Source: Megasphaera hutchinsoni (lineage in GTDB: Bacteria; Bacillota; Negativicutes; Veillonellales; Megasphaeraceae). Taken from it: DNA of 64,000 bases. The translations under genes were made by a program, and so were the position numbers. The notes below the pieces were generated by a model, which saw nothing but the letters and a program-made list of their open reading frames with translations, did not search any database and was not told the DNA's origin. The DNA is taken from assembly GCF_001553405.1 (NCBI RefSeq), contig NZ_KQ960952.1, forward strand, positions 277,965-341,964. The letters are read 5' to 3'. Positions 21,146-54,251 of this stretch are shown piece by piece; the stretch's first letter is position 1, and every line of letters begins with the position of its first letter.

Positions 21146-21801
21146 TTTGAATTATAACGATAGCCATATCCACGTACAGTTTGAATAAAGCAACCTTTAT
21201 TCCCTAATTTAATGCGCAAACGATTAATATGCGTATCAACCGTACGTAAATCCCCATAATATTCATAATTCCATACTTGATTTAAAATTTGTCGCCGACT
21301 CAAAGCTTTTCCAGCATTACTCATTAAGTAATTTAATAACTTATATTCCGTAGGACTTAAATCAATATTCTTTCCATCTAATACCACTTGTCGTGCATCC
21401 CTATCAATAGCAACGCCATCTTGTTCCATTTCACTCTCTTTTGTGGAACGACGAAACATCGCCTTGATTTTTGCAACTAAAATTTTAGGGCTAAAGGGCT
21501 TCGTAATATATTCATCTACACCTAAATCATATGCAAATAATTGGTCAATTTCTTCTCCTTTCGCCGTAATCATAATAATAGGAACCATCGATTCACGCCG
21601 AATTTCTCGGCACACCGTCCAACCATCATATCCTGGCATCATAACATCTAATAATACTAAATCAGGATGATATTTGTCATACATTTCGATCGCTTCTTTA
21701 CCATCAGCCGCTTCGATAACTTCATATCCTTCGGGTGTTAAAAAGTCATTTACTAATTGACGCATCAATTGTTCATCATCTGCAATTAATATTTTTTCCA
21801 T
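21142..21801 (-). CDS. OmpR-family response regulator
   Basis: 219 residues. The receiver domain has the acidic pocket ADDE, phospho-acceptor Asp in LLDVMMPG, switch Thr in MITAKG and Lys in ITKPFSP. The C-terminal winged-helix Trans_reg_C domain includes LSPTEYKLLNYL and TVDTHINRLRIKLG. It overlaps folK by 16 nt upstream and the kinase by 4 nt downstream. The regulon cannot be read from the sequence. Confidence 0.95.
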   Translation of the reverse strand: MEKILIADDEQLMRQLVNDFLTPEGYEVIEAADGKEAIEMYDKYHPDLVLLDVMMPGYDGWTVCREIRRESMVPIIMITAKGEEIDQLFAYDLGVDEYITKPFSPKILVAKIKAMFRRSTKESEMEQDGVAIDRDARQVVLDGKNIDLSPTEYKLLNYLMSNAGKALSRRQILNQVWNYEYYGDLRTVDTHINRLRIKLGNKGCFIQTVRGYGYRYNSK

Positions 21802-22292
21802 AGTTTCGCCTTTCTATATTTATGTATTTGAGATACATCTTTTACCAATAAAGTAAGCCACTCCTCTATGGGACGTCCTTCTATTTCTAATGTTGGCTCA
21901 ATTTCTTGTAATGGCACAAGTACAAATGCACGTTTTGTTAAATAAGGATGAGGAATTTGTAAATCCGGTTTCGTACAGACCTCATCACGACTGTACACGA
22001 TATCTATATCTATCGTCCGAGTCCCCCATTTTTCTTGCCTAATACGTCCTAATTTTTTTTCTATTTGCAAACATCGCTGCAATAATTCAGATCCCGTATA
22101 CGTACTATCTACCGTTAAGGCGGCATTTAAAAACATCGGTTGATCTATTTTTCCCCACGGCATCGTTTCATATAATGACGAAACGTGCTGTATCGAGCAA
22201 GCATTATCACCACGTAATAAAAAAACAGCTTGAGCTAAATTTTGTTCCCGTTGTCCTATATTCGCCCCTATACTAAGATAAAATCTATTCAT
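21786..22292 (-). CDS. folK: HPPK, 6-hydroxymethyl-dihydropterin pyrophosphokinase
   Basis: 168-residue folate enzyme that transfers pyrophosphate from ATP to 6-hydroxymethyl-7,8-dihydropterin. Family segments include SIGANIGQREQNL, SSLYETMPWG, FLNAALTV and the signature TRTIDIDIVYS with catalytic Asp residues. It overlaps folB by 8 nt and the response regulator by 16 nt. Its product feeds FolP upstream in the same operon. Confidence 0.96.
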   Translation of the reverse strand: MNRFYLSIGANIGQREQNLAQAVFLLRGDNACSIQHVSSLYETMPWGKIDQPMFLNAALTVDSTYTGSELLQRCLQIEKKLGRIRQEKWGTRTIDIDIVYSRDEVCTKPDLQIPHPYLTKRAFVLVPLQEIEPTLEIEGRPIEEWLTLLVKDVSQIHKYRKAKLWKKY

Positions 22293-22650
22293 TTACAGCC
22301 CTTTCAATAGACACATTAACATCTTGCACCAATCCACCAATAGGTGCTTGCGGTTTATGTACGGTTACCCCTACTTTTTTTAGTATCGCAAAAGTAGACA
22401 ATAAAGTTTGAGCAATATCTTCTGCTACAGCTTCAATTAAACAAAAAGATTTTTCTGTTACGATTTCTTTTATTACAGTATATACTGTACCATAATCAAC
22501 CGTTTCTGACAAAGTGTCATTTTTTCCTGCTTGTTCTAACGATAAATATAACGTGACATCAACATAAAATGGTTGCCCATTCGTTTTTTCTTCTGCAAAA
22601 CAACCATGATATCCCCAAAATGTTAACCCTTGCAAATGAATACTATCCAT
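22285..22650 (-). CDS. folB: Dihydroneopterin aldolase
   Basis: 121-residue T-fold enzyme cleaving 7,8-dihydroneopterin to 6-hydroxymethyl-dihydropterin and glycolaldehyde. Conserved segments are GLTFWGYHGCFAEEK, SETVDYG, LIEAVAEDIA and the catalytic Lys in VHKPQAP. ATG 22650 has AAAGGAG upstream and starts 2 nt after the folP stop; a start at 22686 would extend into folP without support. Confidence 0.95.
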   Translation of the reverse strand: MDSIHLQGLTFWGYHGCFAEEKTNGQPFYVDVTLYLSLEQAGKNDTLSETVDYGTVYTVIKEIVTEKSFCLIEAVAEDIAQTLLSTFAILKKVGVTVHKPQAPIGGLVQDVNVSIERAVNE

Positions 22651-22652
22651 CA

Positions 22653-23498
22653 CTATTTCTCCTTTAGTACTTCTGCCATAATACACATACGCTTAATAGG
22701 CTTTACATCATGCACGCGAATAATCGAAGCTCCACGTAATACACCGGACACACATACAGCACCCGTTCCTTCCAGCCGTTCAGTTACGGGCAGATCCAAC
22801 ACATCACCAATAAAACCCTTCCGCGAAGGGCCTAACAATAATGGATAGGGTAATGCCGTAAATTCATGCAGATGTTTGATAATATATATATTTTGTTCCG
22901 TTGTTTTGCCAAAAAAACCAATACCTGGATCCGTGATAATACGAGATGGATCAACTCCTGCTTTAACCGCTATTTCTACGGAAGTACGAAAGAATTTTTT
23001 CATATCTAAAAGCAAATCACCATAATCTGTCGTATCTTGATTATGCATCACAATCACCGGTACATTATATTTAGCTGCTACTTTTGCCATTTTTCCAGGT
23101 TCTTTAGCGTATTGCAAACCCCATATATCATTCATAATATGGGCACCTAGCGACATCGCATATTCAGCCGTTTCTGCCTTGAACGTATCAACCGAAACAG
23201 GTACCGTTGAATGTGCTAATACGTCTGGTAAAAAACGTGATAATCTATTAATTTCTTCGACAGCACTAATAGGAGTAAAACCTGGACGAGATGATTCCGC
23301 ACCAATATCAATAATATCTGCACCATCACGAATCATTTCTTCCATATGTGCAATCGCTTTAGCCACAGTATTCCACTGTCCTCCATCAGAAAAAGAATCA
23401 GCTGTAACATTTAAAATCCCCATAATAAGAGGCCGTTCGCCTAAGGTTAACGTTTTTCCATCGGTCCATGTATAATGTCTCATTTCAACGCCCATCAT
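22653..23498 (-). CDS. folP: Dihydropteroate synthase
   Basis: About 281 residues, TIM barrel, joining p-aminobenzoate to dihydropterin pyrophosphate; target of sulfonamides. Signatures are IMGILNVTADSFSDGG, GADIIDIGAESSRPG, the IMNDIWG segment and GPSRKGFIG. It overlaps the folE stop by about 14 nt. ATG 23498 has AAGGA upstream; adjacent GTG 23501 and ATG 23495 are alternatives. Confidence 0.96.
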   Translation of the reverse strand: MMGVEMRHYTWTDGKTLTLGERPLIMGILNVTADSFSDGGQWNTVAKAIAHMEEMIRDGADIIDIGAESSRPGFTPISAVEEINRLSRFLPDVLAHSTVPVSVDTFKAETAEYAMSLGAHIMNDIWGLQYAKEPGKMAKVAAKYNVPVIVMHNQDTTDYGDLLLDMKKFFRTSVEIAVKAGVDPSRIITDPGIGFFGKTTEQNIYIIKHLHEFTALPYPLLLGPSRKGFIGDVLDLPVTERLEGTGAVCVSGVLRGASIIRVHDVKPIKRMCIMAEVLKEK

Positions 23499-24087
23499 CA
23501 CTCGTTCCTTCCATTAATAAATTCCATGCTTGATGATACATATCACTACCACTTTGAATAATACCAGCCGTTGCCGTTGTAATAATATTCGTATCACCAG
23601 CTAATCCATGCATCATGGTCATGCATAAATGAGTCGCTTCAACTACCACTAATACCCCTTCAGGTTGCAAACCACGACATAAAGAAAGACTCAATTCTTG
23701 TGTTAATCGTTCTTGTAACTGCGGACGTTTCGTCAGTGTTTCCACAGCACTAACAAAATGACCAAACCCAGCAACCTTTCCTTTATGAGGATAATAAGCA
23801 ATATGTACTGTCCCAAAAAAAGGCAATAAATGATGTTCACACATGGATTGAAAACGGATATTGCGAATAGCCACTAAGCCATCTACTTCTGTTTGAATCG
23901 GTTGTGCCCATTCATCATCTGGATTTTTCCAAAGACCAGAAAAAAAATTGATAAATGCATCAGTTACCCGATTCGGCGTTTTCTCCATCTGTAATACCTT
24001 GAGGTCTAAGCCGAGGGTCTCTAAAAAAGTTTGCATTGCCTGTACAGCCTTTTCTCGTTGTATCTGTGGCTGTCGTATTTCTATCAT
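23485..24087 (-). CDS. folE: GTP cyclohydrolase I-like protein with altered triphosphate pocket
   Basis: 200 residues, collinear with FolE of the T-fold family, which makes dihydroneopterin triphosphate from GTP. The zinc and catalytic residues are present (MCEHH at 82-86; H153 and C155 in THLCM), and so is the guanine-anchoring Glu (E126 in RPQLQER). The three basic residues that hold the GTP triphosphate in E. coli FolE (Lys136, Arg139, Arg185) align with H110, S113 and M159. The family MRGVRKPG segment reads MMHGLAGD. It heads the folE-P-B-K run, so a folate role is likely, but the true substrate may not be GTP. Gene symbol reflects homology and context. Confidence 0.88.
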   Translation of the reverse strand: MIEIRQPQIQREKAVQAMQTFLETLGLDLKVLQMEKTPNRVTDAFINFFSGLWKNPDDEWAQPIQTEVDGLVAIRNIRFQSMCEHHLLPFFGTVHIAYYPHKGKVAGFGHFVSAVETLTKRPQLQERLTQELSLSLCRGLQPEGVLVVVEATHLCMTMMHGLAGDTNIITTATAGIIQSGSDMYHQAWNLLMEGTSDDGR

Positions 24088-24193: not shown

Positions 24194-24700
24194 TTATGTT
24201 TCCGATATATACGAACTAACCAATCGACCAATAACAATTCCTAATGTTCCCGTAATAAGTTGAGGCCAACTCATAGCGAATAAAATCATCTTTGATACTT
24301 TTGGTGGTACATTGATACACATGAATAATAAGGTAAAACCCCCAAATAATACGATCGTTTTTACAATGACTGCTAATATATTTCCCAAACTGCGTGATGA
24401 AGACTTAAATAGACGTAAGATGATAATATACACAAGATTGCCTATCGCGACCAAAGGGATAAACAAGGGAAACGGCAACATACCCTCTAACCAAGCAAAG
24501 ATAGGCGTAATGATGGCTATGGCTATCCATCCATTTCCTTTTAACCGTAGTGCGGCAACAACTAAGCATGCATTAACGAGCGAACCAATAAAAAATAAAC
24601 TAACCTGTGGTGGCACTGGTAATACTAAACGTATCCCTTGTAATACTAAAGTAAGTGCTACTAATAAAGCGGTACGCGTAAGTTGTCCAGTTTGATTCAT
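24194..24700 (-). CDS. Small polytopic membrane protein, probable ECF-transporter S component
   Basis: About 168 residues with five or six membrane helices and short loops, resembling substrate-binding S components of energy-coupling factor vitamin transporters. It starts LTRTALLVALTLVLQGIRL and contains FFIGSLVNACLVVAALRL. The substrate cannot be named from sequence; its place 106 nt upstream of folE, without a visible terminator, hints at folate or another pteridine. No EcfA/EcfT genes are near, as expected for group II systems. ATG 24700 has GAGGG nine bases upstream; ATG 24709 abuts that site. Confidence 0.7.
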   Translation of the reverse strand: MNQTGQLTRTALLVALTLVLQGIRLVLPVPPQVSLFFIGSLVNACLVVAALRLKGNGWIAIAIITPIFAWLEGMLPFPLFIPLVAIGNLVYIIILRLFKSSSRSLGNILAVIVKTIVLFGGFTLLFMCINVPPKVSKMILFAMSWPQLITGTLGIVIGRLVSSYISET

Positions 24701-24734
24701 GAAAAACATCCCTCTCTATGTTTTTTACTAAAAC

Positions 24735-52577: not shown

Positions 52578-53210
52578 CTATACACCCCGCATATCAGGTG
52601 GCCAAATATACTTATGCATCTGCAATTGTAACCGCCATGACGTCAATGAATACCGCTCCATATATGTTACAATATCACGTGGTGCTAACGTTTCAAACAC
52701 AGCCCCAACATAAATAGCACATGTAGGTTGCACCTCTTCACACAATATACGTGCTACCTCTAAATCTTGATATGACCCAACTACAAATTTTAACACATCT
52801 TGCGATCGCAGATGCCGAAAATTAGGTGCATACATTTTTTCTTCCATTTGCGAAAACGGACCTTTGTAATCAATAGTAAACCAAACATGTGGATATACCA
52901 TATAAGGTAAAATATCGACACTTCCATTTGTTTCAATATTAACATCCTGTGCCGAAAGTGCTTGCAATAAACCATGAATCGGTTGTAATAATGGCTCACC
53001 ACCAGTCAGCGTAACATTCCGATAACGGACAGCCGCTACAATATCTTCAACGTCCATCGACCGCCCTTCAGCAAAAGCATAGGTTGTATCACAATAAATA
53101 CAACGCAAATTACACCCACATAATCGAATAAAAGAGGCGAGCTCACCAGCTCGCCTACCTTCACCATCAATACTATGAAAAATTTCATTAATATACAACT
53201 TATTTTTCAT
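52578..53210 (-). CDS. queE: 7-carboxy-7-deazaguanine synthase (radical SAM)
   Basis: About 210 residues, converting 6-carboxytetrahydropterin to CDG in queuosine biosynthesis. Begins INEIFHSIDGEG, has the radical SAM cluster motif CNLRCIYCDT and TLTGGEPLLQ. It overlaps queD by 11 nt. ATG 53210 fits family length; ATG 53222 lacks spacing for a ribosome site. Confidence 0.95.
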   Translation of the reverse strand: MKNKLYINEIFHSIDGEGRRAGELASFIRLCGCNLRCIYCDTTYAFAEGRSMDVEDIVAAVRYRNVTLTGGEPLLQPIHGLLQALSAQDVNIETNGSVDILPYMVYPHVWFTIDYKGPFSQMEEKMYAPNFRHLRSQDVLKFVVGSYQDLEVARILCEEVQPTCAIYVGAVFETLAPRDIVTYMERYSLTSWRLQLQMHKYIWPPDMRGV

Positions 53211-53529
53211 AGATAGCCACATTCCCTTCGCTTTCTTGTATTTCCACTTTTACACAATAAGGCACCGTATCGCAAATCCATTTAGCCAAATTTTCTGCCG
53301 TAGGATTAAAGGGAAACAATTCATTCAAATATTGATGATCCAATTTACCATGCACCAATTCTTTAATTTGCTTAAAATCAACGATCATACCCTGTTCATT
53401 TAATTCAGCCGCTTGACAAGTAACATAAATAATCCAATTATGGCCATGTAAATGACGACATTTACTCTCATAATCTAAATGCAACTGATGTGCAGCAGAT
53501 ATTTCCAGTCGCTTTCTAACCGTAAACAT
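53200..53529 (-). CDS. queD: 6-carboxytetrahydropterin synthase
   Basis: 109-residue T-fold enzyme acting on dihydroneopterin triphosphate. Zinc His residues lie in AAHQL and LHGHNW; the catalytic Cys is in KCRHLHGHN; the C-terminus has EIQESEG. queD and queE are adjacent; queC and queF are not in this window. Its substrate must come from a GTP cyclohydrolase, which makes the altered FolE at 23.5 kb relevant. Confidence 0.95.
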   Translation of the reverse strand: MFTVRKRLEISAAHQLHLDYESKCRHLHGHNWIIYVTCQAAELNEQGMIVDFKQIKELVHGKLDHQYLNELFPFNPTAENLAKWICDTVPYCVKVEIQESEGNVAIYEK

Positions 53530-53543
53530 ACACGTATTGCCCC

Positions 53544-54251
53544 CTACTCTTCAATAGCCGTATCCAAGGCAATGTGAATCATATTATTAAATGAAAGCTG
53601 TCGTTCTTCGGGAGTGCAAGCTTCTTTAGTAATCAACTGATCGCTAACCGTAAATAATCCCAACGCAGCAACGCCATACTTAGCGGCCAACACATATAAC
53701 CCAGCTGTTTCCATTTCTACCGCAAGGATATCGTAAGCAGACAATTTATCGTTATCAATTTCATCATCATAAAAGCGATCAACTGAAATAACATTTCCTA
53801 CCCGTACAGGAATATGTGCCGCTATGGCGTTATCATACGCCTTCCGTAGCAACTCAAAATTAGCAATCGGAGCAAACTGAATAGATGGACCAAAAATATT
53901 GCGAATAATCCCCGAATCGGTAGTCGCTGCTTGGGCTATCACCACATCACGCAAAGGAATATCCTTTTGCATCCCCCCACACGTGCCTACGCGAATTAAC
54001 CGTTTTGCCCCATATTCACGAATTAATTCCTGCACATAAATAGAAATAGAAGGAATACCCATTCCCGTTCCCTGTACAGAAATTCGCTTACCTTTATATG
54101 TACCCGTAAACCCTAACATATTACGTATATCCGTATAACATATAACATCCTTTAAAAAGGTTTCTGCAATATACTTAGCACGTAAAGGATCCCCTGGTAA
54201 TAATACCGTTTCAGCAATTTGTCCCGTTGTCGCTGCAATATGTAAACTCAT
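53544..54251 (-). CDS. deoD: Purine-nucleoside phosphorylase DeoD type
   Basis: 235-residue hexameric enzyme splitting purine nucleosides with phosphate. Motifs: [45 protein letters not shown] and the catalytic Asp in TVSDQL. It precedes queD by 14 nt and may share its transcript. AAGGAGG upstream. Confidence 0.96.

Follow-up and report, generated by a model that had tools for sequence, protein, structure and literature searches.

The window, a 64,000-nucleotide stretch of the Megasphaera hutchinsoni genome, carries a folE gene on its minus strand (23485..24087). Its ORF, its PF01227 match and its fold match to solved GTP cyclohydrolase I chains assign it to GTP cyclohydrolase IA, the enzyme that opens folate synthesis, with a diverged phosphate site. 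The ORF is intact, encodes 200 amino acids and has a Shine-Dalgarno-like GGAG upstream; the PF01227 (GTP_cyclohydroI) match scores 164 bits against a cut-off of 27 and covers 172 of 179 positions. On the same strand, folE is followed in order by folP (dihydropteroate synthase; 22653..23501; PF00809, TIGR01496), which overlaps the folE end, folB (dihydroneopterin aldolase; 22285..22686; PF02152, TIGR00525) and folK (HPPK; 21786..22292; PF01288, TIGR01498). Directly upstream of folE lies a small membrane-protein gene (24194-24709), a candidate ECF S component whose position beside folE is conserved across most of the genus. An Rfam scan of the window matched one tRNA only, with no folate riboswitch upstream of the fol operon. 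The window also holds, on the minus strand, queD (53200..53529), whose product needs dihydroneopterin triphosphate, and queE (7-carboxy-7-deazaguanine synthase; 52578..53222). The queD ORF has a PTPS family match and is homologous to the QueD genes that adjoin queE in relatives, and homologues of the queE ORF likewise adjoin queD. A DeoD-like purine nucleoside phosphorylase gene adjoins this pair (52578-54251), and a similar neighbourhood is found in a related genome (G003, locus L219).

The AlphaFold model of the window FolE (pLDDT 93.5) best matches solved GTP cyclohydrolase I chains (Z 19-24), among them the Listeria monocytogenes enzyme (4uqf; Z 23.9), a full-length match with 186 residues aligned at 1.6 A. 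The next-best matches are QueF-like T-fold proteins, at Z <= 14. The fold and zinc triad are shared with the L. monocytogenes (4uqf) and Thermus thermophilus (1wm9) enzymes and with human GCH1. Likeness to GTP cyclohydrolase IA extends to the equivalents of His112, His179, Glu152 and Arg65 and to an operon shared with folP, folB and folK. Unlike the canonical enzyme, the window FolE has replacements at Ser135, Lys136, Arg139, Arg185, Gly186 and Lys188/189. It scores 153 bits against the NCBIfam folE equivalog TIGR00063, below the curated cut-off of 181.6. This failure was rejected as a sign of new function, since two que-linked enzymes with intact phosphate contacts also fail (L035, 165 bits; L037, 173 bits).

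The codons bear out the residue assignments of an earlier, sequence-only reading of this DNA. The zinc ligands Cys110, His113 and Cys181 are kept as C83, H86 and C155, the catalytic His112 and His179 as H85 and H153, and the guanine-binding Glu152 as E126. The positions of E. coli Lys136, Arg139 and Arg185, hereafter the clamp, are occupied by H110 (CAT), S113 (AGT; 23749..23751, minus strand) and M159 (ATG). H110 stands next to G109, which replaces the ribose-contacting Ser135 of canonical enzymes (G109-H110, 23758..23763, minus strand), and M159 stands next to H160 at the Gly186 position (M159-H160, 23608..23613, minus strand). The Lys188/Lys189 rim has become L162/A163. That reading had concluded that the whole triphosphate clamp was gone. 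Three contacts are indeed lost, but the T. thermophilus structure has four phosphate-binding residues, Lys134, Arg137, Arg183 and Arg64 (PMC4005822). The fourth, equivalent to E. coli Arg65, is kept as R40 (23968..23970, minus strand), the sole retained phosphate contact; H110 and H160 are, in addition, weakly basic. The active-site alignment had also been described as gap-free, which holds against Listeria FolE and genus relatives but not against the T. thermophilus and Mycobacterium tuberculosis enzymes, where a one-residue gap in the HMMER alignment places H160 opposite Arg185. Because of this placement, H160 may partly replace Arg185. In human GCH1, R216, taken as the Arg185 equivalent from its loop position, coordinates the beta- and gamma-phosphates (PMC7750480). 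A literature search for the clamp residues by name found nothing. Compensating Lys or Arg gains at the lost positions were considered and, on sequence, rejected, as the gains in related enzymes are N-terminal (position 36 and, in part, 30 and 54). The core net charge lies below that of canonical FolE (-5 versus about -2).

PF01227 proteins were drawn from 250 genomes of the class, whose class and family were deduced through relatives that have names, and a FolE tree was built without the clamp columns. Negativicutes FolE falls into two main groups, one adjoining queD-queE and the other heading folP-folB-folK. The folate-operon enzymes form one clade (48 rows, SH-aLRT 99) on a long stem (0.75), and the que-linked enzymes form a separate one (17 rows, SH-aLRT 96). 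The latter share the Pfam family and bacterial class of the window FolE but differ in clade, in their location among queuosine genes and in their clamp. All four basic contacts are kept in every que-linked enzyme (17/17) and in 52 of 60 canonical ones. Within the folate clade, four are kept in 14 rows, three in 26, two in seven and one in a single row, the window FolE, which has the lowest count among the 125 sequences compared. The H/S/M triple, whose conservation in Negativicutes had been raised earlier, is unique to this enzyme; its nearest relatives have HRR, HNR, HER or HDR clamps. The loss of Arg185 is therefore recent, and M159 is found in no other of the 48 clade members.

Residues on the phosphate side of the active site are indeed relaxed in the folate clade, which bears out the sequence-only reading in part, and the que-linked copies retain these residues. 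Overall variability is similar in the folate clade and canonical FolE (mean entropy 1.50 versus 1.52). Of 176 columns, Arg139 ranks second in relaxation in the folate clade, with Asp or Glu in many relatives, and the Ser135, Lys136, His179 and Arg185 columns and the Gly186-Lys189 rim, Gly186 itself included, are also relaxed. No variation occurs in the zinc and guanine columns across the 48 rows, the Arg65 equivalent is kept in 47, and position 185 is Lys or Arg in 46. Relaxation of the three clamp columns exceeds that of random triples drawn from 44 columns conserved in canonical FolE (p ~0.015, with shared ancestry uncorrected). By the contact counts given above, clamp loss in the window FolE also exceeds chance. 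Folate context by itself was rejected as the cause, as 21 of 23 canonical-clade FolE proteins in a folate context keep all four contacts.

Lys136, Arg139 and Arg185 are usual in GTP cyclohydrolase IA but not invariant. Other phyla show departures from KRR that arose independently, including EKR in Nitrospirota, HKI and NRR in Zixibacteria, and RAR and AKR in Microbacteriaceae. The Nitrospirota enzymes (L132, L146, L149, L189, L195) carry Glu in place of Lys136, with Lys replacing Arg139. The folate-operon enzymes of Microbacteriaceae (L134, L158, L163, L203, L200) have lost Lys136 or Arg139 (RAR, AKR, RNR), apparently independently. Variation also reaches a catalytic residue. FolE His179 mutants halt at the formamidopyrimidine intermediate. 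In E. coli FolE, activity is abolished when His179 is lost (PMC4005822). Gln occupies this position in 29 of the 48 folate-clade rows, in Selenomonadaceae-like (family f14) and Veillonella-like genomes (loci including L007, L017, L053, L061 and L068), in most cases alongside FolE2 or a que-linked FolE. Two genomes (G140, G181) combine a Gln179 FolE with no other known cyclohydrolase.

It had been proposed that a second cyclohydrolase might feed QueD. The genome, 1.57 Mb in a 32-contig assembly of 99.3% completeness, was searched and contains a single PF01227 protein and no FolE2. FolE2, or GTP cyclohydrolase IB (PF02649), belongs to another family and catalyses this reaction elsewhere in the class. 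Besides queD and queE in the window, queC and queF lie elsewhere in the genome, and a DHFR gene is present. With the queDECF set present and no second FolE or FolE2, QueD apparently depends on the window FolE alone for its triphosphate substrate. Four further genomes each have one folate-clade FolE together with queDECF, as in the window genome. Their clamps are HRR (G003), KDK (G055, locus L048; G140) and RDR (G181), with Gln179 in addition in the last two genomes. Judged from this co-occurrence without a second cyclohydrolase, triphosphate synthesis is probably retained in these sole enzymes, unless QueD takes a lower phosphate or a gene was missed in each assembly. Genomes with a sole FolE and queD gave no signal of keeping Arg139 more often, in a comparison of only three independent pairs on starred branches. 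In two sister-genus genomes (G187; G226, locus L215), queD and queE were not detected. The first of these has queC and queF, which suggests that a 7-deazaguanine precursor is salvaged or that QueC has been repurposed.

Folate genes also occur apart from folE. Three genomes of family f14 (G182, G067, G145) have folP-folB-folK and FolE2 but no folE, which indicates that the downstream folate genes are independent of a non-triphosphate FolE; an ordinary H2NTP producer is presumably enough for folate in this family. Two genomes from the same genus as the window (G229, G241; loci L222, L223) carry FolE2 and no PF01227 FolE, and folB and folK were not detected alongside their folP. In most bacteria folQ, the gene for dihydroneopterin triphosphate pyrophosphatase, has yet to be identified (PMC1971073). 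The window genome encodes three Nudix proteins, so the pyrophosphatase step is possible there.

The window gene is probably the sole, bona fide GTP cyclohydrolase IA of this organism, with a rebuilt and weaker phosphate site that marks the extreme of the folate-operon lineage. This reading is supported by the retained zinc, guanine and catalytic residues, by the single FolE, and by the queDECF, folP/folB/folK and DHFR genes, which together require a triphosphate-making cyclohydrolase. The four other sole-FolE genomes with queDECF, some of them with Asp139, also favour it, as do the Arg65 equivalent kept across nearly the whole clade, the variant clamps of other phyla and the three f14 genomes that have FolE2 but no folE. 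From these features we infer the activity, substrate and binding mode of the enzyme. It would convert GTP into 7,8-dihydroneopterin triphosphate, a product feeding both the folE-headed folate operon and QueD. Binding of GTP would rest on the guanine and zinc contacts and on R40, perhaps aided by H110 and H160 or a bound cation, at a probable cost in affinity. The enzyme belongs to a fast-evolving Negativicutes clade of folate-operon FolE, in which constraint would be relaxed on the outer half of the active site, the one facing the phosphates. Several points weigh against this reading. It is unusual to lose three of the four phosphate contacts as well as Ser135 and the Lys188/189 rim, and the Asp or Glu that many relatives have at 139 would repel phosphate. 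The clamp is lost in step with folate linkage, as would also be expected from a folate-dedicated enzyme that does not make the triphosphate, and sole-copy status depends on the 32-contig assembly.

A substrate such as GMP, GDP or guanosine, suggested earlier for the window FolE, is disfavoured. It is unlikely that the folate-operon clade as a whole uses one of these, with a product that enters FolB after little or no dephosphorylation and a que-linked FolE or FolE2 feeding QueD. Such a division would fit the clamp, intact in all 17 que-linked enzymes and relaxed in folate-linked ones, as well as the acidic residue 139 of many members and the lost Lys188/189 rim. It would also fit the presence of both FolE types in several Veillonella and Megasphaera-like genomes and of FolE2 plus the folate type in family f14. 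However, five genomes (G000, G003, G055, G140, G181) have only a folate-type FolE yet the full queDECF set, the clade keeps R65 (47/48) and Lys or Arg at 185 (46/48), and the three f14 genomes noted above run folP, folB and folK with FolE2 only. Quite unlikely, too, is that GTP is used through a changed binding mode, for example with a divalent cation that links the triphosphate both to His110 and to the acidic residue that many relatives have at 113. The pathway logic demands GTP and an HxxD/E motif (His110, Asp/Glu113) recurs in genus relatives (L036, L038, L047), but the window FolE itself has Ser at 113. It is very unlikely that the gene is decaying and barely active, with folate and queuosine needs mostly met by salvage. 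The three active-site changes peculiar to the species, among them the unique M159, and the small genome would suit decay, whereas the intact ORF, the kept catalytic core and the intact folP-folB-folK and que genes speak against it.

It is quite doubtful that FolE has split in Negativicutes into two enzymes, one for queuosine that requires the triphosphate and one reserved for folate that uses a less phosphorylated guanine nucleotide. Such a split, if true, would make the missing dihydroneopterin triphosphate pyrophosphatase unnecessary, and in the sole-copy genomes a lower phosphate would have to serve as the QueD substrate. The Lys/Arg clamp and His179 are usually regarded as fixed in GTP cyclohydrolase I. 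The folate-operon clade is a natural group in which these positions drift and the zinc and guanine sites stay constant, and genomes exist that rely on such a FolE for both folate and queuosine. With this clade, the extent to which FolE requires its triphosphate site can be tested directly. The clade also has a bearing on why most bacteria lack an identified pyrophosphatase gene (PMC1971073).
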